DNA from: Porphyra umbilicalis
Taxonomy: Eukaryota > Rhodophyta > Bangiophyceae > Bangiales > Bangiaceae
Direction: 5' to 3'
NCBI GenBank assembly: GCA_002049455.2
Contig: KV918955.1
Coordinates: forward strand, 62,001 to 126,000
Length of the DNA: 64,000 bases
This document shows positions 3,001 through 23,297 of the stretch, one piece after another; position 1 is the stretch's first letter, and every line of letters starts with the position of its first letter. The notes under the pieces are model-generated. The model saw nothing but the letters and a program-made list of their open reading frames with translations, was not told the DNA's origin and made no database searches. The translations under genes and the position numbers were made by a program.

Positions 3001-6000
3001 GGATGGCCGCGATCGGGTTTCGCACAGGGGCCACATTAGCAAACAAATGGATTGCGCGACGGCCCAGATTTTCAGCGCATTCCGAGCACAAACATTCTAA
3101 GGACCCGCGTGCACGCCCGGATCAACTCCATCCAGATCCGCGGGCGGCTCAGCGCGAGGCCGTCGAATTGATCCCCTGACTTACAGATTTCCGAATTGGA
3201 ATAAACGGAGGTTTTTGGGGACGGCCCAGATTTTCGGCGACCGGCGCAGCGCGAGGCCGTCGAAGTAAACGCGTGACTTTCCGTCCGCCAAATTGGTGCA
3301 TTCAGAGAAGTTTCGGGAACGCCCAGAGTTTCGGCGAGCGGCGCCGCGCGAGGGCGTCTTCACACCGGATGCTGGGTGGCGGGGTGGGGGGGCCGCCGGG
3401 TGGCAAGGTGGGGGGGTCCGAGGGGGAGGGCCGCCTCCCCCCTGGCCGCCGGGTGGCGAGGTGGGGGGGGTACGGGGGGGAGTGCTGCCTCCTCGCTGGC
3501 CGCCGGGTGGCGGGGTGGGCGGGTTCCGGGGGGGAAGGGCCGCCCCGCTCCCAGCATCCATCAGTGAATCCTATCGCGTTGCTCTCAGTCTGAAAATCAT
3601 TGGGGGCTTACTGCACAGTACCGACGCCAGCCTTACGGCGAGCGGCGCAGCGCGAGGGCGCCTTTCCACCGGCTGCTTGGTGGTAAGGTGGGGGGGCCGC
3701 CAGGCGGCGGGGTGGGGGGAGCCGGGGGGGAGGGCCACCTCCCCCCCGGCCGCCGGATGGCGGAGTGGGGGGGTCCGGGGGGGAGGGCCGCCTCGCCCCC
3801 GGCCTCCGGGTGGCGGGGAGGGGGGGGTCCGGGGATGAGGGCTGCCTCGCCCCCGGCCTTCGGGAGGCGGGGTGGGGGGGGTCCGGGGGTGAGGACCGCC
3901 TCCCCCTCGGCCGCCGGGTGGCGGGGTGGGGGGGGTCCGGGGGGGAAGGGCCGCCTCCCCCCCCGGCCGCCGGGTGGCGGGTGGGGGGGGTCCGGAGGCA
4001 TGGGCCGCCCCTCTTCCTGGCATATAAGGCCGAGCCACAATCATCTATCCTCAGAACGGAGAACGAAGTTTTCTCTCTCTGGACAGTAGCCGATTCTATC
4101 GGCCTGGAGGCACTTTTTCTCTTTTTTCCGCGCTCTGTATCTTTGGAACGGCTGCCTTACGGACAAATCTGAGCAGCGCAAATGGGGGAAGGGGGAAGGC
4201 ATGGGCAAAAGGTTGCAAGCTGTTGAATGAGCTGGGTCGCGTGGTCGTCTGGCGATTTCATGAAAACGCGTCTGTGGGGCCTGTGAGAGCATGCGCCTCG
4301 ATTGACAGTGGGCTCTCAGAGCCCGCGCGGGTCCTACCTAGTCCCTTTATATAAAGCTCGCCGTGGGCCACATGCGTCTGTCCGTCTGTATGTGCAGCCC
4401 ACCAATGGGACGCCCGCGATCGGGTCGCGCACAGGGGCTACAATGGCAAACAAATAGATTGCGCGACGGCCCGGGTTTTCAGCGCATTCCGACCACAAAC
4501 ATTCTAAGGACCGGCCTGCACGTCTTGGTCAAGTACATCCCAGCGGGATGGCCGCGATCGGGTTTCGCACAGGGGCTACATTAGCAAACAAATGGATTGC
4601 GCTAGCGCCCAGATTTTCAGCGCATTCCGAGCACACACATTCTAAGGACCTGCATGCACGCCCGGATCAACTCCATCCAGAACCGCGAGCGGCGCAGCGC
4701 GAGGCCGTCGAATCGATCCCCTGATTCACAGTATCCCGAGGTGGAAAAAACAGAGGTGTTTGGGGACGGCCCAGATTTTCGGGGAGCGGCGCAGCGCGAG
4801 TCCGTCGAAGTAAACACGTGACTTTCTGTCCGCCAAGTTGGTGCAATCAGAGGATTTTGGGGAACGCCCGGAGTTTCGGCGAGCGGCGCAGCGCGAGGGC
4901 GTCTTCACACCGGCCGCTGGGTGGCGGGGTGGGGGGGCCGCCGGGTGGCGGGGTGGGGGGGTCCGGGGGGGCGGGCCGCCTCCCCCCCGGCCGCCGGGTG
5001 GCGGGGTGGGGGGGTCCGGGGGGGAGGGCCGCCTCCCCCCCGGCCGCCGGGTGGCGGCGTGGGGGGGTCCCAGGGGGAGGGCCGCCTCGCCCCCGGCCGC
5101 CGGGTGGCGGGTGGGGGGGGTCCGGGGGGATGGGCCGCCCCTCCGCCTGGCATATAAGGCCGCGCCAGAATCATCTATTCTCAGGACGGAGAACCAATTA
5201 TTCAGTGTCTGGGAAAGTAGCCGATTCTATCGGGCTGCAGGCACTTTTTCTCTTTCTTCGGCGCTCTGTATCTCTGGAACAGCTGCCCTACGGTCAAATC
5301 TGAGCAGCGCCAATGGGGGAAGGGGGGAGGCATTGGCAAATGTTTGCAAGCTACCGATTGAGCTGGGTCGCGTAGTCGTCCGGCGATTTCATGAAAACGC
5401 GTCTGTGGGGCATGTGAGAGCATGCGCATCGATTGACAGTGGGCTCTCAGAGCTCGCGCGGGTCCTACCTAGTCCCTTTATCTAAAGCTCGCCGTGGGCC
5501 ACATGCGTCTGTCTGTCTGTATGTGCAGCCCACCAATGGGACGTTCGCGATCGGGTCGCGCACAGGGGCTACATTAGCAAACAAATGGATTGCGCGACGG
5601 CCCGGATTATCAGCGCATTCCGACCACAAACATTCTAAGGACCTGCGTGCACGCCCGGATCAAATACATCCCAGTGGAATGGCCGCGGTCGGGTTTCGCA
5701 CAGGGGCCACATTGGCAAACAAATGGATTGCGCGACGGCCCAGATTTTCAGCGCATTCCGACCACAAACATTCTAAGGACCTGCGTGCACTCCCGGATCA
5801 ACTCCATTAGGAACCGCGAGCGGCGCAGCGCGAGGCCGTCGAATTGATCCCACGACTTACAGTTTCCCGATTTGGAATAAACAGAGGTTTTTGGGAACGG
5901 CCCAGATTTTCGGCGAGCGGCGCAGCGCGAGGCCGTCGAAGTAAACGCGTGACTTTCCGTCCGCCAAGTTGGTGCAATCAGAGGATTTTGGGGAACGCCC

Positions 6001-6808
6001 AGAGTTTCGGCGAGCGGCGCAGCGCGAGGGCGTCTTCGCACCGGCTGCTGGGTGGTGGGGTGGGGGGGCCGCCGGGTGGCGGGGTGGGGGGGTCCGGGGG
6101 GGAGGGCCGCCTCCCTCCCGGCCGCCGGGTTGCGGGGTGGGGGGGGTCCGGGGGGGAGGGCCGCCTCGCCCCCGACCGCCGGGTGGCGGGTTGGGGGGGT
6201 CCGGGGGGGAGGGCCGCCTCGCCCCCGGCCGCCGGGAGGGGTCCGGGGGGGAGGGCCGCCTCGCCCCCGGCCGCCGGGAGGCGAAGTGGGGGGGTCCGGG
6301 AGGGAGGGCCGCCTCGCCCCCGGCCGCCGGGAGGCGGGGTGAGGGGGGTCCGGGGTGGAGGGCAGCCTCGCCCCCGACTGCCGGGTGACGGGGTGGGGGG
6401 GGTCCGGGGGGGAGGGCCGCCTCGCCCCCGGCCGCCGAATGGCGAAGTGGGGGGGGTCCGGGGGGATGGGCCGCCCCTCCCCTGGCATATAAGGCCGCGC
6501 CACAATCATCTATTATCAGAACTGAAAACGAATTGTTCTCTCTCTGGAAAAGTAGCCGATTCGATCGGCCTGGAGGCACTTTTTCTCTTTCTTCGGCGCT
6601 CTGTATCTCTGGAACGGCTGCCCTACGGACAAATTTGTGCAGCGCAAATGGGGGAAGGGGGGAGGCATGCGCAAATGTTCGCAAGCTATCGAATGAGCTG
6701 GGTCGCGTAGTCGCACGGCGATTTCAAGATAACGCGTCTGTGGGGCATGTGAGAAAATGCGCCTCGATTGACAGTGGGCTCTCAGAGCCCGCGCAGGTCC
6801 TACCTAGT
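1..6808. repeat. Higher-order satellite array, ~1.1 kb units
   Basis: Six successive units can be phased on the motif CATATAAGGCCGCGCCA or a close variant at 204, 1332, 2469, 4021, 5151 and 6486, giving spacings of 1128, 1137, 1552, 1130 and 1335 bp. Each unit holds three parts. One is a block of G-rich minisatellite with a ~53-54 bp period built on GAGGGCCGCC and GGTGGCGGGGT. The second is a unique-like stretch starting with the TATA-like CATATAAGG. The third starts at TTTATATAAGG and contains ~138 bp subrepeats (CAAACAAATGG) and ~97 bp subrepeats (GAGCGGCGCAGCGCGAGG). Length differences come mostly from minisatellite copy number; the 1552 bp unit also carries about 140 bp of extra sequence near 3545-3690. 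Many long ORFs cross the array in all frames, but they follow the repeat and I do not regard them as genes. The last unit runs directly into Helitron copy 1. Confidence 0.9.
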
Positions 6809-8437: not shown

Positions 8438-9252
8438 ATGGCCTCCTCCCCCTCATCCCCCGGGCCCCTGAGCCCTGAGTTTCGAATCCCCCGCCTGCCG
8501 ACCGGCTCGCGCACCCCCTCCTTCGGCGGCCACCCCACCCCAGCCGCGCACACGACGCTGGCCACCCCCCCCCATCGCCTGAGCGCGTCGCGGCGGCGTC
8601 CGACGCCCAGTCGGTCGGCGGGGCTGTGCCGTTTGTGCCAGCGCCCCTGCCCTGGGCGGCGGTCGCTGCGCCTCTGCCTGGTCACGACGGGCCCTTTGTG
8701 GCCCAGGCGGGGCCGGTCGCCTCATCCGAGGCGGCCAGCCGTCCGCTGTCGCTTCTGTTGCCACCGCGGCGGGGTGGGCTTTCAGCTGGGCCACCCAATT
8801 CGGTTTGGGCGGGCGGCCGCGTGACGCAGGGTGGCGGCGGGCCAGCTGTTGGGACTGAGGAAGAGACGTCTGACCCCTTCGCTCCTCGCCGCGTGGCGGC
8901 GTTTGCTGCGAGTGGCGGCGGGGCCGCCGTCCCAGAGCCCCGGCAGGTGGCCGGCATTCGTCCTCGCACGGCCCGGGCGATCGAAGCCCGGGCCACGCGC
9001 GCCGAAAAGAAGGCGAGGCGACGCAAGCCACAAGTGTGGCACTGTAAGACTTGCAAAGTCGATTGCACCAGTGCCAAGAATATGTTGGCCCACAAGGCGT
9101 CCTCGGGCCATCAACGCAAGGCAGCCGAGCACGCTGGGACACCCCATTGTGGGACGTGTGACAGGACTTTTGAATCGGCTGGCCATTTGGCCACCCACAT
9201 GCAGAGTCGACGCCACGCTTCGACTGCTGTTCGCTTGAATTTGAAGAAGTAA
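8438..9252 (+). CDS. Helitron accessory zinc-finger protein, frame changes at a C9 tract
   Basis: An ATG at 8438 starts a Pro/Ser-rich frame (MASSPSSPGPL...). At the C9 tract 8565-8573 the coding character passes to the -1 frame, which continues as SPERVAAASDAQSVGG and ends at 9252. The C-terminal 70 residues hold two zinc fingers with spacing C-x2-C-x12-H-x5-H, starting CKTC and CGTC. This is the U1/matrin-type C2H2 pattern, associated with RNA or structured nucleic-acid binding. A basic stretch (RAEKKARRRKP) precedes the fingers. The in-frame upstream part has no ATG, so the first frame plus a -1 shift, or an unseen splice, is needed. The CCC CCC C context is a possible slippery site. The identical layout in copy 2 (33461-34275), with no changes in the fingers, argues against a sequencing error in one copy. 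A fixed ancestral frameshift remains possible. Confidence 0.6.
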
Positions 9253-10410
9253 ATTTTTGTTTTGCGTCCGCGAGGCGTGCCCACTTTGGAAGTGCGCGTG
9301 GCCCGGTTGCCAAGCGGCGAACGCTGGCTTGGGGCGCTTGCAGACGATCCGCTGCCAAATCGGTGGAGGCGGGCCCAGTGATTTCGAGGGACGCTTGGAT
9401 CAGAATCTAGCCGAAACGGTTGCATTTCTTTTGCGCCACAGCAGGAACATTACGCTCACATTTCTTTCGCGCCAGTGTGCCAACGTACGATCAGGTCTGC
9501 ATATCTTTGGCGAGTGGAGTGTCGATGCCACTTCACACTCGAAATCCTTTGCACCGTGCATCTCGGATTCCTGGCGTCGCCGTCGTCGCGCCCGTCTTGA
9601 TCCCGCGCGCCGTCACCGGCGCGATTGGTTCTTGGCGGGCGTGCCCGACACGCCGACGGCAAGGCGCCCCTGTCGGGCGCCGGGCCGCAGACCGAGACCG
9701 GTTTGACTGATCGACTGTTGGAGAGGGGAGTTCACAATTCGGACAGGACTTTCGTTTGCTGTTTTGTACGGTCGTCCCCCTGCCGATTGCTTCGGGCATA
9801 TAACGTGTTTTGGGGCGCCCGTACTATTCGCAAGGGATCTTGAGGTTGCAACTTTTGGTTGGTTCTCACACCACCAGGATTGCTTCCCAGGACAGATCCC
9901 TCCTCACACCCTGGTGTCTCGGCCGTGAGCTTTCGGGCTTTCGGTCGGGAGGACCAATCCGGCAGTCGGTACCCGTGAGGGACTACTGCCGGTGGACAGA
10001 GGAGCGAAGGCCCTGTTCGATTTATGAACGGGGGACCCTTTGCGGCTGGCACTGCGCCACGACCCTGTTTTGATTTCGCGCGAAGCGCTGCCCAAATTTG
10101 TGACGGTGCGGGACGGACGGCTTCGCGTGTCCCCACAAAGACCGACCCTGCGCTGACCCGCCTCCTGCCCTGAGCGCGCCACGATTTCGTCATCCAAATT
10201 GGAATCTGTTGCCCGTGCTGTTATCTTGAGCTGGACTGAGTTCGTGGTTGAGGGGTGAACTTGTGGATCTCGAGAGCGACCGATTTTGGAATCACGCGAA
10301 GCCCTTGCACTTTCGATCTCGCGGGACCACCAGATAGTTATCCATCGTACGTTAATTTGGCGTGCGTGGGAATAACTTTGTAGTTGTTTTCGTCGCGTAA
10401 TTCATGCAAC
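9253..10410. other. Helitron internal non-coding region
   Basis: No supported gene. The stretch is near-identical to 34276-35433 in the second copy and leads into the Rep-helicase start. It probably serves as 3' UTR of the zinc-finger gene and promoter or 5' UTR of the Rep-helicase gene, but no TATA or splice signal can be assigned with confidence. Confidence 0.6.
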
Positions 10411-10880
10411 ATGGCGGACTCCGACGATGAAATTCGACCTGGCGCGAGTAGGGAGCTGCCTGCAAGTGAACCACAAAATGCAGCAGGTGTCACCTCTGTT
10501 GTGGCGTCAATGGCACATCGTCACTGCTTCGAAGCTGTGGACCGCAGCATTGTGGATGTGATGGGGCCAGACGTGGCATCGCAAATCACATGGCTGGTGT
10601 GCGCAGACTTCCGTCAGGTTCCCGCAGTGGTACCCAAGGGGTCCATAGCACAAATCATTCGTGCTTCTCTTCGACAGTCACCGTTGATGTGGTCACGCTT
10701 CACGCGAATGCAACTGACGACAAATATGCGCGTGAAGACCAGGGCAGACGCAGGTCAGGCTGAGGAGGCCAGCCTTTTCGAGGCCTTTGGGGGATGGCTG
10801 TTAGCCATTGGCGATGGGGTTATCCGGTCCGCTGTGGTGCTTCAGACCGAGGAGTCAGCACGCGGCACACCTGCACAGGG
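10411..10880 (+). pseudogene. Helitron Rep-helicase remnant, 5' part with in-frame internal deletion
   Basis: The ATG at 10411 matches the copy 2 start at 35434. After about 30 codons, ending in the sequence for VTSVVA, the frame jumps to codons for SMAHRHCFEAV. In copy 2 that sequence lies 3819 bp downstream. The junction carries a 3 bp microhomology (GGC at copy 2 positions 35526-35528 and 39345-39347). The loss is 1273 codons, exactly in frame, and removes the zinc-binding region, the whole HUH Rep domain and helicase Walker A and B. Helicase motif III (here with A for G: CADFRQVP) and later parts remain. The frame then enters the 5' LTR at 10881 and stops at 10921-10923. Confidence 0.9.
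10876..10880. repeat. Target site duplication CAGGG, left
   Basis: CAGGG directly precedes the 5' LTR and is repeated at 21129-21133 directly after the 3' LTR. The uninterrupted Helitron copy 2 has it once, at 39718-39722. Confidence 0.95.
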
Positions 10881-11274
10881 TGTAGCATATCTCTGCTACC
10901 AATTGGCAATTAGCCACGGGTAGCCCCCTTGACTGGCCGAATCCACGGATGTGTGTGACTCGGCTTGTGGCACGCCCTTTGGGGGGTTACTTCCGCATTG
11001 TTTATTTTTTATTGCTTGTTTGCTTGCCTGTCTTATCTGTCTGCCGGCACTCATTACGATCGCTTGATCGGATGGTCGATCGACCAGTGCCGTTGTTTGT
11101 ATTAAACCACCATGGGTCCGGGGTCGCCGTCGTGGGCACCACCCGGCTCCCCATCGGATGCCCGTCAACAAAAGGTCTTTCTTCCTCGCCGCGACGGCGA
11201 TAGAACTCGCTTTATTGCTTGGCTACGGTCGGTCTCAGTACACTGGTAATTGAACTAACGTGATTAATACCACA
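10881..11274 (+). repeat. 5' LTR (394 bp)
   Basis: It starts TGTAGCATATCTCTGC and ends TTAATACCACA, with TG...CA termini. It matches 20735-21128 over its whole length with about two substitutions. Confidence 0.95.
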
Positions 11275-11276
11275 TT

Positions 11277-11292
11277 TGGTGGAGCAGCGGGG
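11277..11292 (+). promoter_or_regulatory. Putative primer binding site
   Basis: Two bases after the 5' LTR lies TGGTGGAGCAGCGGGG. Its reverse complement ends in CCA, as a tRNA 3' end must. It is not the initiator-Met type (TGGTATCAGAGC); the TCCACCA end would suit an Ala-like tRNA. The tRNA is not identified. Confidence 0.55.
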
Positions 11293-11504
11293 GATACCCT
11301 CGCCTTCATCGTGCCTCGCGGCACGGTGTCCCCGAGAACTTTCTCGCTGCCTCGTGGCATTGTGACGGTGTCGATACGGTCGCTTGGCGCGCGGGGCGTA
11401 AGCCATTTGACTTGTGGGCGTGGTGCCGGGGGCATCACGGTTGAGATCTCCGACGTTGGCGCGCAGGGCGTAAGCCAAGTCGGAACACTTGTTCAGGTCC
11501 CAGT

Positions 11505-13151
11505 ATGTCTACTGGTGGTACCGGCGGCACTCGGCGAGCCAGAGACGGCAAGTTGCCATCTGGCTACCGGCCGCCGGGCGGGGGACAAGGCACTCCTGCC
11601 GCCTCCGACGCCCCCACGGACGGTGCTCTAACTCCTCCCATCCCTGCGGATCAAGCCGCCTCCGGGCAGATGCAGGTGGTGGAGAGCCTGAAGGCGGCCG
11701 TTGAAGCACTTCAGCGACGCCTAACGGCCCAAGAACAGACTAACGAGTCTCTGGCGCGAGCCAATGACAAGTTGGTCGACGACGTCGAGGCCCTGCGCAA
11801 GGTCGACTCCCATGAGGAGGAACGCCGTGTGGCTAAGTCTCGCCGCCAGTCGGGCGACAAGACCAAGGACGACAAGAAGACGAACAAGGTGATCAAGGAC
11901 AAGTCCGTCCGCAAGGACGCTCCGGCTAACGCCGCGCTTTCCTCATCTTCCGACGATTCCGCGTCTGGGTCAAGCCCGACGTCGTCAGACGACGACAACC
12001 CCAACGCGACGGACACGTCCTCTTCGGACGATGGCCACGGGCCCCCACACCCGCCGTCGCCCCCAAGTGGGTCCTCGCCGAGCGAAAGCTCGAGCGAGTC
12101 GGACGCGGCCGCGCGCAAGCGCCCCACGCCCCCCACCAAACGGAAGGAGCGACTTGAAAAAGCCGATAGGATCAAGGTGATCCGCCCGGCTAATAGCCAC
12201 TTCAAGACACTCCTGGACTACAGGACGTACTTCCTGATCCGCCGTCAACTGACGTATACGCCTAAAGAGGCACAGCGGTCGAACCGTCTCAACAAACGTT
12301 TGGACGGAGCGTTCCATGGGCAACAGCCATTCACGGGAGGCCTGCCCTTGGGCATCTTCACGTTCTTGACGACCTTTCGCCGCGCGTGCGACGCGGCTGG
12401 GCTGACGCACGGTCAAGCCCTTCCGCTTATGGTCTTTCGACTAGCCGGCAACGCCAAGATGGCCTTCTCCGGCGCGCTTAACAGCACCCTCGGACGTAAG
12501 CGTTACGCCATCCGTACCTACGGAGATGCCGTCAACTGGCTTCTTTCGAAGTATGCGACACACGCAACTATGGCTAACGCCTATCAAGACATCATTACGA
12601 TGAAGCAACAAGACAACGAGGCGCCCACGGCCTTTGGCCATCGCGTGGAAACGCAATGCGACCTCCTGAACGGTTTGTTCGACATCCAAGACGTTAAGGA
12701 CGTCTTCATCACTGGTCTTTCGGACCTTGTGCAAGCGCACGTCCGGGTACTGAACGACCAGTTCCCCGACCGAACCCTGTCCGAGACGGTCGCCACCGCC
12801 CAGATGTACTGGGACGGCACCAACAAGTTGCGTTTGCAACTCAAGATTACCCGCCCCACGGCGATCAAAGTCGCTTACGCGACACAAGACCAGCGGACGA
12901 CGACGGAACGACCGTTCACACCGGTTCGCACCCCGCCGCCCCCTCGGGCAGCCGTCCCTCAAGCCAATCGGGTTGACATCTGTTACAACTGTAACAAGCC
13001 GGGGCACTTCGCCGCACAGTGTGCCGAGCCTTATCGCCCTCGCGAGCGTCGGCAACCGCCTATCGGCGTTCATGCCCTTGCCGACGGCAACGTCGAGGAA
13101 GACGAAGTCGAGCATCCGGCCGACGCCGTGGACGACTCGAAAAACGTCTAG
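11505..13151 (+). CDS. gag: Gag polyprotein (548 aa)
   Basis: Structural protein of the retrotransposon particle. ATG at 11505 follows a ~230 bp leader after the 5' LTR. The first ~220 residues are charged and Ser/Asp/Pro-rich, with a predicted coiled segment near residues 50-100 (LKAAVEALQRRL and what follows). A folded capsid-like region follows (about 240-450; LPLGIFTFLTTFRRACDAAG and WLLSKYATHATMANAYQDI are typical of gypsy Gag). A CCHC zinc knuckle, CYNCNKPGHFAAQC, lies near residue 490 and would bind the RNA genome. The frame ends in TAG at 13149-13151 and overlaps the pol frame, which is offset by -1. Confidence 0.9.
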   Translation: MSTGGTGGTRRARDGKLPSGYRPPGGGQGTPAASDAPTDGALTPPIPADQAASGQMQVVESLKAAVEALQRRLTAQEQTNESLARANDKLVDDVEALRKVDSHEEERRVAKSRRQSGDKTKDDKKTNKVIKDKSVRKDAPANAALSSSSDDSASGSSPTSSDDDNPNATDTSSSDDGHGPPHPPSPPSGSSPSESSSESDAAARKRPTPPTKRKERLEKADRIKVIRPANSHFKTLLDYRTYFLIRRQLTYTPKEAQRSNRLNKRLDGAFHGQQPFTGGLPLGIFTFLTTFRRACDAAGLTHGQALPLMVFRLAGNAKMAFSGALNSTLGRKRYAIRTYGDAVNWLLSKYATHATMANAYQDIITMKQQDNEAPTAFGHRVETQCDLLNGLFDIQDVKDVFITGLSDLVQAHVRVLNDQFPDRTLSETVATAQMYWDGTNKLRLQLKITRPTAIKVAYATQDQRTTTERPFTPVRTPPPPRAAVPQANRVDICYNCNKPGHFAAQCAEPYRPRERRQPPIGVHALADGNVEEDEVEHPADAVDDSKNV

Positions 13152-16100
13152 GCCGGGTGCCCGACTTGGGGTTGCCCGGCGGAACGCGAAAGCGTACGGT
13201 GACAAGACTCTTACGTCGTGCCCTTCGGCACTATGAGATCGCAGCCACGTTAGGCCCATGCCTGCGCATAATGCGAAGTTGCCGCCCTGTCTTAGACACG
13301 GGCGCCGGGGTGAACATAGTGCGAACTAGTGTTCTCCCTTCGAACTGGATGGCTTACGCCGAAGAGTTGACTACGCTTCCGCGCATCCGAGATGCAAACA
13401 ACAATCGTCTTGTGACGAAGTATGCCATACATCTGTATGTAGACACCGGAGGTGTGCGTCTATTTGACCGATTCCTCGTTGCCGACAACTTGTCAGTCCC
13501 GTGCATTCTTGGCACCGAGTTCATTGAACAAAACATCGAGGGCATTCTGCCGCGCTTGCGCAAGATCGTCTGGCAAGAGCACGTGCGATGCACGGAAGAG
13601 CAACCTCGGCCAACGCCGATCTTAGCTTGTCTTAACGACAGCGCGTGGGACCGCCACTGGCAAGATAAACCCGCTCGGGTTCGAGCCTGTAAACAGGTGC
13701 GTGTCAACGGACACAAGGAGGAGTGGATCATGGCCACGTGCGACACGCCTGGTATGGTTACCATCACACCGAACATTCGGTTGTGCCGACACAAGTCCAT
13801 GGCAGTCGCCCGCGGCATCGCCATCGTCAAACCGGACGAACCATTCCTGGTCAAGTTATGCAACTTCGGCAAGGACCAAGTCATTGTTCGCAAGAACTCT
13901 ACCTTGGGGTTTGCGGAACCCTACCAAGGGCCGATGCTTTCCGCCGTCTTGGATGACAACACCCCAAAGGGTGGAGCCGATAACTCATCGGACGACGCAA
14001 GTCGTGACCCACTCGAGGACCTCGACCTCAGTGAGGCACCCGAGTACCTGCACAAGCAGATTCGAGACATGCTGAAGACGCATTCGTCTATGTGGGATGG
14101 AACCCTTGGCGTCATCCGTGCTACGGAACACGCCATCGTCACTCCTCCCGACGCTCTGCCCATACGGGCCCAACCCTACCGCACCGGGCCGTTCAAACGG
14201 CAGATCATCGCTGATCAGATCAACAAGATGTTGAAGCTCAACGTCATTGCCCCTAGCCATAGTGCTTGGGCAAGCCCCGTGGTAATTGTACCCAAGAAGA
14301 ACGGCAAAGCCCGGTTCTGTGTCGACTATCGTCGGTTAAATAATATCACCAAGAAGGATGCTTATCCCTTGCCTCGGATGGAGGACTGCCTCGACTCCTT
14401 GGGAGATGCCCAGGTGTTCACGTCTCTCGACTGCACCGCGGGGTACTGGCAAGTACCCTTACGCAAGGACGACCAAGAGAGGACGGCGTTCACAACGCAC
14501 TGTGGTATATACCACTGGTTATCCATGCCGTTCGGCTTGACGAACGCGCCCGCTACCTTCCAGCGCGCGTTGGATATTATCCTCTCCGGTTTGAAGTGGC
14601 AGATATGCCTCGTCTACTTAGACGATGTCATCATCTTCTCCGCAAACGCGGAACAACACGTCAAGGACGTTGACACGGTTCTTCACCGTCTCCGCGAAGC
14701 CGGGGTCACCCTCAACTTGGAAAAGTGCACGTGGTTCTCCGATGAGGTCGAGTACCTAGGACACATTGTCCGCCCCGGGCAACTGCATGTGCACAACAAG
14801 AACGTGGATGCTCTGAAGCATGCCAAGTTCCCAACCACAAAGACCCAGCTGAAAAGCTTCTTGGGCATGTGCAACGTCTATCGACGGTTTGTCAAAGACT
14901 TTGCCAAACGAGCAAAGCCCCTGAACGCCCTGACAAGGGCCGAGATCCCACCGGATTTACCACCACCGACGGACGTGGCTATCGCCGCCTTCGAGGACCT
15001 TCGCAACGCACTGTTGTGCCCACCGGTACTTGCCTTGCCGAAGGCCAATCGGAAGCTCGTCGTTGACGTGGACGCCTGCGCCGACCAAGTTGGTTGTACC
15101 CTCCTCCAAGAGGAGCCGGGCGAACTGCTTCACCCTGTCGGGTATTGGAGCCGAGGACTCACTGCTGCAGAGAAAAACTACTCCACCACGGAGCGAGAAT
15201 GCCTCGGCGTTGTGTGGGCTGTCCTCAAGTTGAGGCACTTCCTTGACGGACAACGCTTCCTCATCCGAACGGATCACCAAGCACTTAGCTGGATCTACAG
15301 CACAACCGACTCAAGCGGACGCTTGATGCGATGGCGACTTCGCCTCTCCGATTATATATTCGATATGGTTTATAAACCAGGTGCATCTCACCACTTGCCC
15401 GACTTCCTGTCGCGCGCCTCTACGGCGGCGCCGCCAGAAGATATCCATGATGATATACCTTGTCTGGCATTGGCCGAGACGGCCAACGGCTTAAGAACGG
15501 GGAGGTACACGGGTACCGACACACCGGAACCGGTGGAGTTCGACGACGTTGTCGAAGCACAACAAACAGACGACTTCTGCGTCGAGATGTCCACTCGCGT
15601 GGAGCGCGGAACGGCCAAGGCCTTCTTCCGCGATGAGCATCACGCTCTGTACCGCCGTGCGCCTTACGGCAAACAGTTGGTTATTCCAAAGTCGCTACGC
15701 GAACGCGTGTTGACCCTCGAGCACCACGCAACCGTGGCCGCCCATCCTGGTATGAACCGGATGTATTACACCATGCGCAAGGCATACTACTGGCCTTCAA
15801 TGGTGACGGATATTCATTCGACCATCACCAAGTGTACAACGTGTGCGCAAAACCGCCTCGCCTTGCGGCGACACACCACGCCCTTGACCCTGTTCCAGGC
15901 TACCGAGCCTCTCACGGAGCTATCCGTTGACATCTTTGGGCCCATCCCGGCCTCCAAGAAGGGCAACCGCTTCATCTTGGTTATCACCGACCGCTTCGCC
16001 AAGCTCACCAAGTGCGTCGCCTTGCGGCGAATCACGGCTATGTCAGTGGCGTCAGCCATCATCGACGCGTGGGTGTCAGCCTACGGGCCACCGGACCGAA

Positions 16101-17620
16101 TCCTATCGGACCAAGGGCCCCAGTTCATGTCGAACTTCTTCATCGCTGTGATGAAAATGCTTGGCATTGAAACGGTTCGCACCACGGCGTATCACCCCCA
16201 AACCAATGGGCAAGTTGAACGGTACAACCGTACCATGGCTACGCAGCTGCGACACTACGTCGCCGACGACCCATCACGATGGGATGAGCTACTCCCGGTA
16301 ATCACCATGGCGTATAATAGCCAACCACATCGGTCGACGGGCATCGCCCCATTTGAGCTTGTTATCCCAAGGCGGATCCCCAACCTCACGGTTCGCAACT
16401 TGCCCCCGGGCACTCCGCTTACCAATAAGGGAACGCTCAAGGATGGGTCACCCCTAGCTCGCAAGCGCGAGTTCATGGCCCGCCTGCGCAAGCAGATCCC
16501 CATCGTGGTCGAGGCCTTGCGTAAGACGCAACAACGTTACAAACGTAACTTCGACCATCGGGTCGCAACCCGCAATGCGGACGTCAAGATCGGCGACTAC
16601 GTATACACGACCAACCACGATCGGCAAAACAAGCTGCAAAGCAAAGCCATTGGACCCTTCGTGGTCGTCGACGCGGACGCGGACGCCTCCACGTTTGTCA
16701 TTGACATTGACGGCGAGGAGAAACGCGTCAGCAGTGACCATGTCACCCCCGCTCCTCGTCCAACGACGACGGACAAGGTTCCACACCCCTTGCTAGATGG
16801 TCTAGACCAACGCAAGTCAACCCCGGCAACTGCCGATGAGTATGTGATCGACAAACTCCTAGGCTTACGCCAGACGGGTGACAGCTATAGCGCTAAGGTG
16901 CGCTGGTTCGACTACGGGTCGAAAGACGACACCTGGGAACCCCTGGAGAACCTCCCCCGCAACCTGGTGGTGCGTTTCCTTCGACAGAAGAAGAAGCATG
17001 TACCGGGGTACGAGTGGCAAACGCCAACGCGACGAAGTCGCCGACAGGCCGGGCTCACAACCGTGGCCAACATCGTCATGGACTCCACGTGGATACCCAC
17101 TATCCAACATGTCCATGTTACCGGTGACGGAGTTATCCATGCCGATGTCTCTTGGACAGAGTCAAGTACCGACGTTGCAATTAAGGAAGTAATTCCTGTG
17201 GCGTGGCTCAAGTCCACTCTGCCGTCCATGACGCGCAACTTTGCGTATGACCCCCAACTTGCCTTGCGGCATTTCTCTCGGCTGAACCGTGTTTACGGCC
17301 CGTACACATATGTGTGGCCGAAATCCGCACAGGCGACACTGATCGGGAGCGATCCCCCCGTACCAGTGCTCCCCAACGGGTTTCTGGTACCTCCGGTGCA
17401 ACACTTGGACTCAGTCCTTCGACGCTTGGTAACAACCACAGAAGGAGCAACCGTGGTAATACCACAATGGACCAACGCCAGTTGGTACGCTACTGCCATA
17501 CGTGCATGTTTCGAGTACGAAGTGCTTTTATCAGCAGACTCAAGGGATACAAATCCCACAACATGGGCCATGATGGCCTGCCACTTCCTTCATCGCTATG
17601 ACGATAAGCAGAAAAACTGA
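13019..17620 (+). CDS. pol: Pol polyprotein: PR-RT-RNase H-INT-chromodomain
   Basis: Residues are counted from the open-frame start at 13019; translation probably enters by -1 shift near 13142. Protease: LDTGAG, catalytic D93. Reverse transcriptase: FCVDYRRLN, FGLTNAPATFQ and YLDD at 533. RNase H: VDVDACADQVG, TERECLGVVWA and RTDHQALSW. Integrase: HHCC zinc site (HPGMNRMYYTMRKAYYWPSM then CTTCAQN) and catalytic D971, D1031 and E1067, the last two 35 apart. A chromodomain lies near 1273-1325 (VRWFDYGSKDDTWEPLENL). About 190 further residues follow, including VVIPQWTNASWYATA, a part not usual in chromoviruses. The frame is intact to TGA, so the element looks capable of transposition. The chromodomain would direct integration to modified histones. 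Confidence 0.95.
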   Translation: MCRALSPSRASATAYRRSCPCRRQRRGRRSRASGRRRGRLEKRLGRVPDLGLPGGTRKRTVTRLLRRALRHYEIAATLGPCLRIMRSCRPVLDTGAGVNIVRTSVLPSNWMAYAEELTTLPRIRDANNNRLVTKYAIHLYVDTGGVRLFDRFLVADNLSVPCILGTEFIEQNIEGILPRLRKIVWQEHVRCTEEQPRPTPILACLNDSAWDRHWQDKPARVRACKQVRVNGHKEEWIMATCDTPGMVTITPNIRLCRHKSMAVARGIAIVKPDEPFLVKLCNFGKDQVIVRKNSTLGFAEPYQGPMLSAVLDDNTPKGGADNSSDDASRDPLEDLDLSEAPEYLHKQIRDMLKTHSSMWDGTLGVIRATEHAIVTPPDALPIRAQPYRTGPFKRQIIADQINKMLKLNVIAPSHSAWASPVVIVPKKNGKARFCVDYRRLNNITKKDAYPLPRMEDCLDSLGDAQVFTSLDCTAGYWQVPLRKDDQERTAFTTHCGIYHWLSMPFGLTNAPATFQRALDIILSGLKWQICLVYLDDVIIFSANAEQHVKDVDTVLHRLREAGVTLNLEKCTWFSDEVEYLGHIVRPGQLHVHNKNVDALKHAKFPTTKTQLKSFLGMCNVYRRFVKDFAKRAKPLNALTRAEIPPDLPPPTDVAIAAFEDLRNALLCPPVLALPKANRKLVVDVDACADQVGCTLLQEEPGELLHPVGYWSRGLTAAEKNYSTTERECLGVVWAVLKLRHFLDGQRFLIRTDHQALSWIYSTTDSSGRLMRWRLRLSDYIFDMVYKPGASHHLPDFLSRASTAAPPEDIHDDIPCLALAETANGLRTGRYTGTDTPEPVEFDDVVEAQQTDDFCVEMSTRVERGTAKAFFRDEHHALYRRAPYGKQLVIPKSLRERVLTLEHHATVAAHPGMNRMYYTMRKAYYWPSMVTDIHSTITKCTTCAQNRLALRRHTTPLTLFQATEPLTELSVDIFGPIPASKKGNRFILVITDRFAKLTKCVALRRITAMSVASAIIDAWVSAYGPPDRILSDQGPQFMSNFFIAVMKMLGIETVRTTAYHPQTNGQVERYNRTMATQLRHYVADDPSRWDELLPVITMAYNSQPHRSTGIAPFELVIPRRIPNLTVRNLPPGTPLTNKGTLKDGSPLARKREFMARLRKQIPIVVEALRKTQQRYKRNFDHRVATRNADVKIGDYVYTTNHDRQNKLQSKAIGPFVVVDADADASTFVIDIDGEEKRVSSDHVTPAPRPTTTDKVPHPLLDGLDQRKSTPATADEYVIDKLLGLRQTGDSYSAKVRWFDYGSKDDTWEPLENLPRNLVVRFLRQKKKHVPGYEWQTPTRRSRRQAGLTTVANIVMDSTWIPTIQHVHVTGDGVIHADVSWTESSTDVAIKEVIPVAWLKSTLPSMTRNFAYDPQLALRHFSRLNRVYGPYTYVWPKSAQATLIGSDPPVPVLPNGFLVPPVQHLDSVLRRLVTTTEGATVVIPQWTNASWYATAIRACFEYEVLLSADSRDTNPTTWAMMACHFLHRYDDKQKN
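13139..13145 (+). promoter_or_regulatory. Candidate -1 frameshift site between gag and pol
   Basis: GAAAAAC lies two codons before the gag stop, read as TCG AAA AAC GTC TAG in gag. A slip of -1 gives GAA AAA CGT and enters the long pol frame. It resembles, but is not, the ideal A AAA AAC heptamer. The position and the -1 offset of pol support it. Confidence 0.5.
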
Positions 17621-17762
17621 GAAGTGGATACGAACATGTCAAACGACAAACAACAACAAGACGAAGAAACATCAACACCCTAAAAAGGCGTAAGACCCCG
17701 ACATTGTCAACCCCACCCCCCCACCGGGGTCAACCGAGCAAGTCACTGAGCAGTGAACCTCG

Positions 17763-19721
17763 CTACTCCTCGTCGTCACGACGACGCGAGTCCCGACGGG
17801 AATCGCGGCTCGCGCCAACACTGGCCGCCGACTCCTGCGAGACACTACGCGCACGCGTGTTGCGCGCCGAGTGCGGAACCCCCGTCGACGGGCCTCCGCC
17901 CTCGTGGGTCCGACGACCAAGGATGCTCTGCGCGTTGAAGCGCGCCGGCGCGGCCTCCTCCTCTGGCTGTATAGCCTCGAGGTGCTGGGCGAAGCGCCCG
18001 TAGTTGGCTTCGCCGTCAACGGCGCGAGCCACGGCATGTCCAATAATGGACAAAGCCGACTCGACACCCCGTCCGTCCGCGCGCTCAACAGCGGTACGCA
18101 AGCCTGCGATCTGCTCGACCCAGGCGCTAGCCACCGCCGACAAGGCTGCCCCGCGGGGCGCGCGAACGCGTACATCGCGCGCGCGCGCCGACCCAAACAA
18201 GGCAACCGCCGCGGTTGACGACGCGCGGGTCGGCCAAGTGGCATCCACCGACCGTGGCGGAGAGGGCGAGCGATCGCGCCGCGGTGAACGCGGGCGGTAG
18301 CGGCCCTCGCGGGCGTCGCCAACGGCGTGAGCCCAGGTCCGACGACCACGACGCCACACCCCGGGATGGTTCGAAGTAATTCGAGCCATCGGGAGTGGCG
18401 CGTTCGGGTCCAACGCCCAGTCGAAATCGACACAAGGGTGGCGCAGGCAAAAGCCGTATTCCTTGGTCGGGTCGACCGTGACCCGCACCTGCCGGGCTTC
18501 CCCGGAGTCGCGGTCGCGCCAGACGACGTCCTTAAGGACCTCCCGCCAGGGAAACGCCGTCACGGCTTGACGCATCTTGCCGTACAAGACGTACTTGGCC
18601 TCGCCGTCGGGCGCGTCCTTCAACTTGGACGTATCCAACGCGTCAAAATGACGAAGCGTCTTCGTGTCCAAGTGGACGAAGAGCTTGTCCTCCTGCAGGG
18701 TGTGAACCCACGCAGCAACTAAGTTGCAGTAGTACTCGGAGTACACCTCCTGCCAGACGGAGCTGTAAGCGTTGCGCAACGCGTCCGCCATGTAGGACAC
18801 CACCACGGGGGTCGCCACCCACAACCCCGTGTGGGGCTCCCAGTCCGGGATAGGCGGAAGCCAACGGGACAAGTCGAACGCCCGTGGCGCACGGAGAAAT
18901 CCAGCCGCCCACGCGGTAGGCATCAACTCGCGACCGCGAAAGAAGCGCGTGTCAGCGGCCCGACGGTGGTCGGAGGGGAACATCGGCAGCCGAAAGGGGT
19001 TCGGCAACCCGGTGACCCGCGGACTGCGGTCATCTTCGACATTGTCGTTCTCCTCGTGCTTCACCAGCGCGAGCTGCTCGAGGTACGGCTCCAGACCGGA
19101 GTCGTGCCCGAAAGGGACCGAAAGGTCCTCGGCGAGAGCCCTCTTGAGGAAGACGGCCTTCGGCCAGTTGCGCAATAAGCGACAAAACGAGTTGGCCGCT
19201 GCCTCGATCGACTCTGTACCCTTCACAGGGAACATAAGCGCATTGGCGTACACCAAGCGGTGGAACGGGTGCAACGGCAGTTGGTACCGCACGACCTCGT
19301 TGCAAAACGACATCACCTCGTACACACGACGCTGAGGTCCCTGGTTCCCGAAGTACGGGTCCCCATGGACCTCGGCCACGCGGTCGCCCGCGTGGTCCGG
19401 CAACCCGGCTTGCGCCATCACGTCGATGAAGTCGGGCAACGCCTCGTAGTGAGCGTAAACACGGCGCGTGTGCGCACGAGCGCGATTGCGTACGCACATC
19501 TCGTACAGACGGTTGTCGGTGACCCGCGGGACCCCATCGACCACCTCTACAGGGTTGGCGTGCACGTAGTACGAGCCGCGAGGCCGAAACTGGCGCAAGA
19601 CCTCTGGGTCCGCGGAGCAATCCACTTCCGCGTGGCCACCCGCGGCGGCATGCGCCCCGTCGATGGCCTCACCGCCACCGGCAACGCCGCCGTCCACCGC
19701 CATCGCGGCGGAATCCGCCAT
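17763..19721 (-). CDS. Antisense accessory gene of the retrotransposon (~652 aa)
   Basis: A long frame runs opposite to gag-pol between the pol stop and the 3' LTR. It stays open upstream to 20183 (806 codons), but the first ~154 of those are low-complexity repeat. The ATG at 19721 (MADSAAMAVDG) is the first that precedes complex sequence. Residues ~50-450 look like a folded domain: regular hydrophobic spacing and aromatic segments such as LPLHPFHRLVYANALMFPV, LCRLLRNWP-like stretches and SSVWQEVYSEYYCNLVAAW. The tail is Arg/Ser-rich (RYRPRSPRRDRSPSPPRS and RDSRRDSRRRDDEE), as in RNA-binding or nuclear proteins. I recognise no family. There is no clear membrane span, so an envelope is unlikely. 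Antisense ORFs at this position are known in a few plant gypsy elements; homology to them is untested. Confidence 0.6.
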   Translation of the reverse strand: MADSAAMAVDGGVAGGGEAIDGAHAAAGGHAEVDCSADPEVLRQFRPRGSYYVHANPVEVVDGVPRVTDNRLYEMCVRNRARAHTRRVYAHYEALPDFIDVMAQAGLPDHAGDRVAEVHGDPYFGNQGPQRRVYEVMSFCNEVVRYQLPLHPFHRLVYANALMFPVKGTESIEAAANSFCRLLRNWPKAVFLKRALAEDLSVPFGHDSGLEPYLEQLALVKHEENDNVEDDRSPRVTGLPNPFRLPMFPSDHRRAADTRFFRGRELMPTAWAAGFLRAPRAFDLSRWLPPIPDWEPHTGLWVATPVVVSYMADALRNAYSSVWQEVYSEYYCNLVAAWVHTLQEDKLFVHLDTKTLRHFDALDTSKLKDAPDGEAKYVLYGKMRQAVTAFPWREVLKDVVWRDRDSGEARQVRVTVDPTKEYGFCLRHPCVDFDWALDPNAPLPMARITSNHPGVWRRGRRTWAHAVGDAREGRYRPRSPRRDRSPSPPRSVDATWPTRASSTAAVALFGSARARDVRVRAPRGAALSAVASAWVEQIAGLRTAVERADGRGVESALSIIGHAVARAVDGEANYGRFAQHLEAIQPEEEAAPARFNAQSILGRRTHEGGGPSTGVPHSARNTRARSVSQESAASVGASRDSRRDSRRRDDEE

Positions 19722-19753
19722 CGCGTTGGCCGTCCGGGGGGTGTTTACCCTGA

Positions 19754-19905
19754 CCGTCGCCGCCGGGCTGGCCGCGCTTGCCGCCCTTGCCGCCGTCGCC
19801 GCCGGGCTGGCCGCGCTTGCCGCCCTTGCCGCCGTCGCCGCCGGGCTGGCCGCGCTTGCCGCCCTTGCCGCCGTCGCCGCCGGGTGGCCGCGCTTGCCGC
19901 CTTGC
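19754..19905. repeat. 39 bp tandem repeat, about 4 copies
   Basis: CGCCGGGCTGGCCGCGCTTG recurs at 39 bp steps (19761, 19800, 19839; a variant at 19878). It lies just upstream of the likely start of the antisense gene and is in frame with it (13 residues per unit), so it could be either leader or N-terminal coding sequence. Confidence 0.85.
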
Positions 19906-20734
19906 CGCCGGCTTGCCGCCTTGCCGCCGGGCTTGCCGCCTTGCCGCCGTGCGCGCCGCCCCCCCCCACTCCGCGCAAACCCACACTCACCGGGCCCAAC
20001 ACCTCGCGGTGTGCCACCTTGCGGCGACGCACCCCTACTCAACCTTGCCGTTAGGCAGCGACCTGTGCGCGAGCACGAAGACACGGGATGGCCCCGTGCC
20101 GATAACAACGCGGACCCGCACCCCGGCTTCCGCCGTGTCGTCGGGGGAGTCAACACCCCGACGAGGGCGGCGCCTGCCGGCACAACGACAACCAGCTGGT
20201 GCTACCCCGCGCGCCCGACTCGGTGCTAACCGGCCTGGAGGTGTGAACCCCACAACCACGCTCGGCACCACGGACCCGCGCCCCGGCTTTCGCCGTGTCG
20301 TCGGGGTAGTCAAACCCCCGACGAAGGAAGCGCCACTCGGCGCCGACGACGGTTGTCCCAACGCGTGTTGCACGACGCACCCGCGCACCAACGGGTCTTA
20401 ACCCCGACGCTGGTCGCCTGTCAACCGGCCGTCTGGCCACCACGCCGACGCCGACGCCGACTCCTCTGCGAGGGCGCGTGTGCGCGCAAGCGCCGGTCGG
20501 ATCCGCAGCGTCAGCTGCCCGCCACCCACGCCCACGCGTGTGTGGCGGGACGGTCGCGACCGACGACGGCGAACCGCCACCTCCCCCCAATCGGGACTGG
20601 GCGGCGCGCCCCCCCACGGCTCCCACCGCCTGGGCGGTTGCGCCCGCGCGGGCCCGTAAGGGGCCGCGATCGCCCAATCGGGTTTCACCATCCTCGGATC
20701 TCACCGGGACGGTTCGAATCTCGCGTTGGAGGTA
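19906..20734. other. Retrotransposon non-coding region before the 3' LTR
   Basis: No convincing gene. Two diverged direct copies of a ~60 bp stretch beginning CGGACCCGC lie at 20111 and 20271. The last bases before the 3' LTR (GTTGGAGGTA) form only a weak polypurine tract. The region is positioned to hold the promoter of the antisense gene. Confidence 0.5.
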
Positions 20735-21128
20735 TGTAGCATATCTCTGCTACCAATTGGCAATTAGCCACGGGTAGCCCCCTTGACTGGCCGAATCCAC
20801 GGATGTGTGTGACTCGGCTTGTGGCACGCCCTTTGGGGGGTTACTTCCGCATTGTTTATTTTTTATTGCTTGTTTGCTTGCCTGTCTTATCTGTCTGCCG
20901 GCACTCATTACGATCGCTTGATCGGATGGTCGATCGACCAGTGCCGTTGTTTGTATTAAACCACCATGGGTCCGGGGTCGCCGTCGTGGGCACCACCCGG
21001 CTCCCCATCGGATGCCCTTCAACAAAAGGTCTTTCTTCCTCGCCGCGACGGCGATAGAACTCGCTTTATTGCTTGGCTACGGTCGGTCTCAGTACACTGG
21101 TAATTGAACTAACGTTATTAATACCACA
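20735..21128 (+). repeat. 3' LTR (394 bp)
   Basis: Same length and termini as the 5' LTR and near-identical to it. CAGGG follows directly at 21129-21133. Confidence 0.95.
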
Positions 21129-21797
21129 CAGGGCTTCGACTTAGAAACAGACCTGAGAGCAGCGCTCCCTTTGGCCTCAGGACAGGGCGGTGCCCGTCGC
21201 CGTTCGCCGAGGCCAGGAAGTACTGCCGCGGAGCAGTGTACGACGAAGATCCGCATCCCTCGGGCCATGTGTCTCCCGAAAGGAAGTGGGATGCAGGAGC
21301 TGCTAAACTCTGTGTTTCCAGAGATGAGCACGGTCAACCCCACGAACGCTGCCGCGCTGGACGCGATGGGAGAGCGCATGATTCTCACCACTCTGAACAA
21401 GGACGTTCTAGACCTCAACGAATTGGCTATCGATCAGTTTCCAGGTCAGGCACGGACCTACTACAGTATCGATACAGTCAGCGATGAGGACATGGAGCTC
21501 GCGGAGGTCTATACGACAGAGTTTCTGAACACGATTGACCACTCCTCAGTGCCAACGCACGCAATGGTGCTCAAGGTAGGCATGACTGTCATGCTCCTAC
21601 GAAACCTGGCGGCCCAAAATGGCGACTGCAATGGAACGCGGTACATAGTTACACGGCTTGGCGACAATGTCATCGAGCTCCGCCAAATTGGCACCAACAG
21701 GCGCATCCTCATTCCAAAAATTGACGTGACCACCAGCGATTGTGGGCTACCGATCAAGCTCAAGCGACGGCAATTCCCCATCCGCGTGGCATTCGCC
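21129..21797 (+). pseudogene. Helitron Rep-helicase remnant, 3' part
   Basis: This continues the reading frame interrupted at 10880 and matches 39718-40386 of copy 2 with a few substitutions. It encodes the last third of the SF1 helicase, including MVLKVGMTVMLLRNLAAQNG, and breaks off at IRVAFA. The final motif (INKAQGATL in copy 2) is missing because the sequence changes at the N. Confidence 0.9.
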
Positions 21798-21798
21798 N
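21798..21798. other. Single ambiguous base at an abrupt sequence change
   Basis: The only N in the window. To its left the sequence follows the Helitron helicase gene exactly. To its right it is unrelated. This is most simply a gap closure or misjoin, so linkage of left and right parts is uncertain. Confidence 0.8.
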
Positions 21799-21812
21799 AT
21801 GGGACGACGCAG

Positions 21813-23297
21813 CTAGGCGGCCCGCCGGTCATTCTCTGGGGCAAGCGCCATGGCAATTGCCTTGGCATCTTCCACTTTGACGACCACGCTGTCACTCTTG
21901 CCGCCGCGCCCGCCACCACCGACGCTGTCAGTGCGGTGTTTGCCGTCCTTTCCGCTCGTTGCAGACTGCACTGCCACGCGCAGCGACGCTACCGCCATCG
22001 CCGTGCGCTCGTTGCTCTGCCCCTGGCCGTCGACGCGCGCCTCGAGGCGGTTGGCGTCTGCACGCAGGTGCTCAACCTGCAACGTCGACTGCTTGAGTGC
22101 CGCCCACAGCTCCTTGTTTCCGGCTCGCACCGCTTTGGCCACCTGCCCGCTGACGAGGTTCCACACCGCCGCCGCCTCTGGCGTAGGGGCCGACGCGGGG
22201 GTGGCTGCGGTCAAACCGTCCTCGGGGCACATGCCAGCCGTACCACCCACCGACGTCTTGGTTTTTTTCCCGGGCGGCGAGGCGGACTTGGCCGAGGGCA
22301 ACCTGGTCGGGGTGCGCTTCTTGCGGCCTCCCGTCCTCGTGGCCGCGGCCCCGGTGCGCCCACGGGACGCGGGCGGTGAAGGGAATGGGGCAGCCAGGGA
22401 CGCGGGCATCGACGACGGCCGGCCCGCGATCACCTCTGCCGCTGCCGCAGCGCACGCCGCCTCCGCCTCCAACACCGACGCTGACGATAGGGCAGGAAGC
22501 GCCCGTGCGACACCAGACGCGTTTGCCCGCGTTGCCGACGCAGGCTGCGCCGCCACCCACGGAGCCGCCACCGCGGATGCTGTCGTTGCCGCCGGCAACG
22601 AAGACGGAGTCCACGACTGCGACACGGGGCGCCGCGCCACCGACGCTGGCAACGTGTGCAATTCCGCCTCACCCGTGTCGGCGACCGCCGCCGAGCCAGG
22701 AAGCGGAAGTGGAAGCGGCCAATGCGGCGGCGGCGTCATAGGCGTGAAGAGCGGGGGCGGAGCCAGGGGCCCGTAAAAACAGCGGCGGTCGCGGTTATCA
22801 ATGCACGTGGGGTCGGCAACGCCGGCCGCCGCGGACCCGGCGCCGGACGAGGGCATTGGCACCGACGGCGGCGGTAGCGGCCAGAGATGGCCAGAGACCG
22901 ACGCCGTGCCGAGGGACAGGACGGTGGGCGCGGGGGCGACGGCGGGGGCGACGGCGGGGGCGACGGCGGGGGCGACGGCGGGGGCGACGGCGGGGGCGAC
23001 GGCGGGGGCGACGGCGGGGGCGACGGCGGGGGCGACGGCGTGGGCGACGGCGGGGGCGACGGCGGGGGCGACGGCGGGGGCGACGGCGGGGGCGACGGCG
23101 GGGGCGACGGCGGGGGCGACGGTGGGGGCGGCAGCGGCGGCAGGGCCGGCGGCGCCGTCGCCGTGTCGCGCGTCAAGCTCGGCAGCGTCAAGTTCTTCTA
23201 GGCGCTTGTGCTTTGCCTCCGAAGCTGCGAGCGACGCAGCCGTCGTTGGCGTGGCCGACATGCGTGGGGCACGCCCGTTCGGTCGATAGCCAACCAT
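21813..23297 (-). CDS. Low-complexity protein with APAV repeats and C-terminal coiled coil (~494 aa)
   Basis: ATG at 23297, TAG at 21813-21815. The order is: an N-terminal charged helix (ASEAKHKRLEELDAAELDAR), about 17 repeats of Ala-Pro-Ala-Val encoded by a 12 bp minisatellite, a Pro/Ala/Ser-rich middle with a basic patch (GRKKRTPTRLPSAKSASPPG), and a C-terminal region (about 370-450) with heptad-like spacing (ELWAALKQSTLQVEHLRADA). The coiled-coil end reads like real protein, but the bulk is compositionally biased and other frames are open too. It stands head-to-head with the Plavaka-like transposase at 25638 and could be its second gene. No family is recognised. Confidence 0.4.
   Translation of the reverse strand: MVGYRPNGRAPRMSATPTTAASLAASEAKHKRLEELDAAELDARHGDGAAGPAAAAAPTVAPAVAPAVAPAVAPAVAPAVAPAVAHAVAPAVAPAVAPAVAPAVAPAVAPAVAPAVAPAVAPAPTVLSLGTASVSGHLWPLPPPSVPMPSSGAGSAAAGVADPTCIDNRDRRCFYGPLAPPPLFTPMTPPPHWPLPLPLPGSAAVADTGEAELHTLPASVARRPVSQSWTPSSLPAATTASAVAAPWVAAQPASATRANASGVARALPALSSASVLEAEAACAAAAAEVIAGRPSSMPASLAAPFPSPPASRGRTGAAATRTGGRKKRTPTRLPSAKSASPPGKKTKTSVGGTAGMCPEDGLTAATPASAPTPEAAAVWNLVSGQVAKAVRAGNKELWAALKQSTLQVEHLRADANRLEARVDGQGQSNERTAMAVASLRVAVQSATSGKDGKHRTDSVGGGGRGGKSDSVVVKVEDAKAIAMALAPENDRRAA
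22931..23130. repeat. 12 bp minisatellite GGGGGCGACGGC, ~17 copies
   Basis: Near-perfect head-to-tail repetition of GGGGGCGACGGC with occasional substitutions (GTGGGCGACGGC at about 23040). Confidence 0.95.

Follow-up and report, generated by a model that had tools for sequence, protein, structure and literature searches.

The young LTR retrotransposon at positions 10881-21128 of the window (the whole 64,000-nucleotide stretch analysed here, positions 62001-126000 of its contig in an 83.8-Mb assembly) carries, between pol and its 3' LTR and opposite to gag-pol, a protein-coding frame on which purifying selection acts as the element multiplies. Comparisons with protein and domain collections suggest that the product of this antisense gene (aORF) represents an unrecognised protein family. 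The aORF is a genuine accessory gene, carried by a chromodomain Ty3/Gypsy lineage that is probably one of red algae.

Table 1 Features of the retrotransposon and its flanks, in window coordinates
Feature	Position	Strand	Basis or remark
Target-site duplication CAGGG, left copy	10876..10880		read from sequence
5' LTR, 394 bp, TG...CA	10881..11274	+	repeat and other-copy boundary
gag ORF, 548 aa	11505..13151	+	zinc knuckle over cut-off; Retrotrans_gag weak
pol open frame, 1533 aa	13019..17620	+	protease (weak), RT, RNase H, integrase, chromodomain
Convergent gap, 142 bp, pol stop to antisense-gene stop	17621..17762		82% identical in subfamily B copy L059
Antisense gene (aORF), 652 aa	17763..19721	-	ORF, copy alignment, dN/dS
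39-bp tandem repeat, 5.3 copies	19754..19958		just upstream of aORF start
27-bp near-palindrome copy 1, arms TCGTCGGGG / CCCCGACGA	20138..20164		
27-bp near-palindrome copy 2	20298..20324		160 bp beyond copy 1
3' LTR	20735..21128	+	repeat and other-copy boundary
Target-site duplication CAGGG, right copy	21129..21133		read from sequence

The LTRs, target-site duplication, domain order and chromodomain place the element among the Ty3/Gypsy chromodomain retrotransposons (chromoviruses). Its two LTRs differ at 2 positions, and the LTR end was taken as the point where other copies cease matching (21128 in the 3' LTR). The pol domains are ordered RT, RNase H and integrase, with the chromodomain after the integrase. 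Matches to RVT_1, two RNase H models, Integrase_H2C2, rve, Chromo (27.1 bits, cut-off 25.1) and zf-CCHC exceed the Pfam cut-offs, and those to RVP (protease) and Retrotrans_gag (17.9 bits, cut-off 24.1) fall below them. These features bear out a preliminary description of this DNA, in which the element was held to be young and otherwise complete. Directly before the 3' LTR (20711-20720, plus strand) stands GGTTCGAATC, which resembles the consensus of a Pol III B box; the final stretch ahead of this LTR is well preserved in L059, a copy of subfamily B. The element is inserted in a PIF1-helicase gene, perhaps that of a Helitron, with the PIF1 domain to its left and the Pif1_2B domain to its right (gene parts at 10384-10923 and 21171-21800, plus strand). 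Further to the left are direct repeats at 5008-6695, among them copies about 53 bp apart within 6034-6482 and two 300-bp repeats at 5061 and 6396, and a plus-strand ORF (8626-9252) whose 208-aa product has zf-met-type C2H2 zinc fingers. To the right, a long array with 12-bp spacing (22870-23208) encodes Ala-Pro-Ala-Val repeats within a 498-aa minus-strand ORF.

The antisense frame comprises 652 codons from its ATG and is open for 806 codons from an upstream GTG, in agreement with the 650-800 codons first noted, and the other five frames of the same stretch contain 9, 10, 4, 14, and 14 stops. Its start lies about 1 kb from the 3' LTR. The protein was scored at 68 genomic places (a lower bound, with 487 candidates), 46 of which have no internal stop. 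Fifty of these places and one found by DNA, the window copy included, form a set of 51 aligned copies, from which L001 and L003-L008 were excluded because they fell on places already covered. At least 35 of the 36 copies with a readable 3' flank occupy distinct insertion sites (L010 and L011 have one common flank, and both were retained in the counts). Alignment gaps are present only in L002 (one base) and L046 (nine), short ends are missing in four copies (L032, L035, L054, and L056), and 39 of the 51 are free of internal stops.

Variants shared among copies (minor allele in at least five of the 51) have passed through active elements, and in the aORF they fall on the three codon positions in the ratio 7:4:32. 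Single-copy variants are spread evenly (about 135:122:131), as expected of dead copies decaying. Replacement and silent changes stand at 10:33 among the shared variants and at 275:103, with a further 12 stop changes, among the singletons (Fisher P = 1.3e-10); the pol tail is similar (1:14 versus 146:60 with 4 stop changes). One plus-strand frame is also silent-biased, its third positions coinciding with those of the aORF, but has 14 stops; the antisense frame alone is both open and silent-biased. A dN/dS near 1, which had been named beforehand as evidence against the gene, was not seen: at unsaturated divergence the ratio is 0.20 and 0.21 between subfamilies A and B, 0.25 within B, and 0.16 between A and L061. 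The comparison with the C91 copy gives 0.41, at a near-saturated distance and from only 485 codons of a broken gene. It is the bias in exactly one open frame, together with a dN/dS of about 0.2, that demonstrates selection on the protein.

The antisense gene is old in its retrotransposon lineage. Subfamily B copy L059 is identical to the window at 88% of the pol tail, at 90% of the LTR (358 columns), and at 69-71% of the antisense protein. Only five of the 22 listed subfamily B places are stop-free, and the gene is therefore decaying in many older copies. In the more distant C91 copy (L062) the antisense protein is about 40% identical to that of the window, an LTR piece is 74% identical over 129 columns, and the integrase lies on the opposite strand, downstream of the antisense gene. 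This convergent layout is common to all three subfamilies (window, L059, and L062). Protein searches returned 36, 4, and 9 relatives in overlapping sets, mostly nameless metagenome proteins. The sole organism named among them is Pyropia vietnamensis, whose relatives are known as proteins only and include a cluster that stands for 74 sequences. On this basis the host is probably a bangialean red alga. The window aORF, subfamily B, and the P. vietnamensis proteins P0039 and P0042 all begin with MAD. P. vietnamensis P0037 is longer, with a sub-threshold match to glycosyltransferase-61 in its extra part, and we read it as a gene-model fusion. Titles and abstract openings listed by searches of the open PMC library yielded no case of an antisense gene in a red algal element.

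Many close relatives of the element have lost the gene. Scoring of 150 RT places showed 53 with a listed antisense gene at the appropriate spacing, and where the RT is at least 98% identical to that of the window (79 places) the split is 33 with and 46 without one, according to a gene list that is incomplete. Three of these 46 (C142, C24, and C391) were examined and have the same junction, with window position 17632 joined to 19461; about 40 codons of the gene remain, next to 0.9 kb of repeats with a G+C content of 76-77%. Tandem repeats of this kind stand in the place of the lost gene at 630-1556 of L063, 433-1344 of L064, and 693-1635 of L065. The expectation that other copies carry the frame thus holds for the 51 aligned copies and fails for the deletion set: genome-wide, 67 matches to the deletion junction (identified by pattern, three of them checked) compare with 161 to the intact flank, and the reversed controls gave 0. 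The junction lies at the expected distance in 24 of the 46 places without a listed gene, the remaining 22 being undecided, so at least 24 of the 79 copies have the deletion. In the short tails examined, the pol of gene-less copies is open to its end, in L064 to just past it. A gene-less, pol-bearing subfamily has therefore spread recently alongside the gene-bearing one. The gene is thus dispensable in cis, which counts against an essential role there and fits a trans-acting or optional factor. Since some deletion derivatives have an RT protein identical to that of the window, the gene may simply be optional. With gene-bearing and gene-less copies of near-identical RT in the same genome, whether the gene acts in cis or in trans, and whether it is needed or optional, can be tested directly.

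The gene has also diverged differently from its neighbours. Per 150 bp, identity between the window and L059 declines from 0.94 to 0.81 along the pol tail, is 0.69-0.81 in the gene and 0.61 at its start, and rises again to 0.93 in the LTR; conservation is lowest in the gene and in the non-coding DNA that lies upstream of it. At fourfold non-CpG sites the same pair (A-B) differs at 75 of 189 positions in the aORF versus 17 of 128 in the pol tail, and the window and L061 differ at 22 of 191 versus 1 of 49; silent-site divergence of the gene is about three times that of the adjoining pol tail between two subfamilies. Mutation after insertion amounts to 0.0049 per base per copy in both the gene and the pol tail, and the gene is therefore not a mutation hot spot; the corresponding values are 0.0066 upstream of the gene and 0.0075 in the LTR. 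In a set of 27 copies, the four-gamete test is failed by 38-62% of frequent site pairs, whether the two sites lie in one region or in different ones. This points to pervasive recombination, although recurrent mutation can contribute to such failures. The pattern strongly suggests that antisense modules are exchanged between elements as cassettes. Silent-site constraint in pol is an alternative explanation.

The antisense protein begins with an acidic region of variable sequence, followed by a conserved helical core (about residues 46-430), an RS-like linker from about residue 476, a helical region (about 500-583), and an RS-rich end from about residue 618. The "complex central domain" of the preliminary description corresponds to the conserved, mostly helical region, and its Arg/Ser-rich tail to stretches at about residues 476-490 and 618-652. 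Some structure is predicted, in a weak model of the core (mean pLDDT 58, fair mainly for about residues 49-224), and no meaningful fold match was found for this model in PDB or BFVD; a structured fold, which had been named beforehand as support for the gene, is predicted only in part. The window protein matches no family in Pfam or NCBIfam, so that the earlier failure to recognise a family holds across these collections as well as the structure searches. Domain searches found no capsid, zinc-knuckle, RNA-binding, or known DNA-binding domain in the antisense protein, and the window protein has no transmembrane-like stretch (best 19-residue hydropathy 0.98). The RS-rich end hints at a nuclear location, although it is only suggestive.

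Upstream of the gene, the 39-bp tandem repeat is the most variable of ten stretches compared. The near-palindrome has 253 matches at three or fewer mismatches, counted across the whole genome, and its reversed control has 0. Copy 1 is unchanged in 37 of the 51 copies and copy 2 in 41. The arms are imperfectly kept in L059, and the corresponding stretches of L059 and L062 contain no perfect palindromes. We regard the near-palindromes as candidate binding sites, no more.

We lean, by a modest degree, towards reading the aORF product as a nuclear accessory factor, comparable to the antisense gene products of Grande and Retand, that is at least in part supplied in trans. The nuclear, trans-acting role is suggested by the anatomy of the protein, the deletion derivatives, and analogy. 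The aORF would be transcribed toward pol from a promoter of its own, located in the interval of about 1 kb that separates its ATG from the 3' LTR. The protein, with its helical core and an Arg/Ser-rich, probably phosphorylated end, would act in the nucleus as a regulator of element RNA or chromatin. Supplied at least partly in trans, it would allow deletion derivatives to keep moving, and would benefit gene-carrying copies enough to maintain the frame. Its action would resemble that of the Grande and Retand antisense genes, through a protein without a TRP28 profile match.

Several other explanations bear on the same data. A sequence-specific anti-silencing factor like VANC, which would bind the near-palindromes or the 39-bp repeat of its own element and lift host silencing while gene and motifs co-diversify, is rather unlikely. 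The pairing of the near-palindromes upstream of the gene, their abundance over the control and their retention among copies are consistent with such a factor, as are the low conservation of the gene together with its upstream stretch and the precedent of VANC, with its short motif in fast-diverging tandem repeats (PMC5735166, PMC10398659). However, the lack of perfect palindromes in L059 and L062 and of a known DNA-binding domain argues against it, and motif binding is putative. We consider it unlikely that the gene is an exchangeable self-recognition cassette, in which a new nuclear protein family, independent of VANC and TRP28, would read element-specific repeats upstream of its own gene, counter silencing, and be parasitised in trans by the gene-less, pol-bearing sister subfamily. 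The Arg/Ser-rich basic stretches towards the C-terminus and the helical core could also belong to a particle or RNA-handling protein (Rev-like or like a second Gag) that binds genomic RNA for export, packaging, or import of the pre-integration complex, but the domain and fold searches that bear on this came back empty, and we hold this to be distinctly improbable.

Given the layout, any aORF mRNA is complementary to genomic RNA, and the transcript itself might matter by forming dsRNA, the protein being secondary; such roles have been proposed for plant antisense ORFs (PMC7264820). Selection on the protein already disfavours this explanation, and we give it very little credence. That the frame is open by chance in a GC-rich sequence, or is a host gene captured recently and without use, has next to no probability: stops are rarer at the GC3 of the aORF (0.79), but codon-position bias, dN/dS, and the same layout in three subfamilies contradict it, and the restriction of the replacement:silent counts to the open antisense frame refutes it.

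Among known systems, a possible parallel is offered by the VANDALs of Arabidopsis, which are DNA transposons. Their VANC is likewise an accessory gene, with repeated motifs in the non-coding DNA of its element and fast divergence; motif binding and loss of silencing have been shown for VANC, whereas here they are only suggested (PMC5735166, PMC10398659).

Antisense ORFs between pol and the 3' LTR have been described in Grande, RIRE2, Retand, PvRetro13, and the fungal Boty (PMC7264820, PMC11963269). The preliminary description, which had placed such genes in a few plant gypsy lineages, was right about plants but not in confining them there. The Boty gene brtn (Botrytis cinerea) is an additional antisense gene at this place outside plants, although in a fungal host and likened here by description only (PMC7264820, PMC8365987). 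Grande gene23 and the RIRE2 antisense ORF have the same place and orientation as the aORF; lineage and host differ, and they too are likened by description only. For Grande, a nuclear GENE23 protein and a promoter located upstream of gene23 have been reported (PMC7264820). The Retand survey reports TRP28 antisense ORFs in 97% of clusters, and Retand, a non-chromovirus, was seen there only in flowering plants (PMC11963269). The aORF resembles these ORFs in orientation (opposite to gag-pol), in place (from pol to the 3' LTR), in the tandem repeats that accompany it, and in its conservation across many elements (PMC11963269); unlike them, it belongs to a chromodomain element, probably of a red alga. 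None of the nine antisense proteins searched matches TRP28 (Transposase_28, PF04195) at E <= 10. The host genome has no PF04195 match either, in a search without a positive control, as 14 control genomes also lacked a hit over the cut-off. In the literature examined, antisense genes located at this place have no established function. The arrangement itself is already known, and what is new here is a selected accessory antisense gene of an unrecognised family; since the protein of this chromodomain lineage lacks a TRP28 match, such an arrangement may have originated, or been filled, on more than one occasion.
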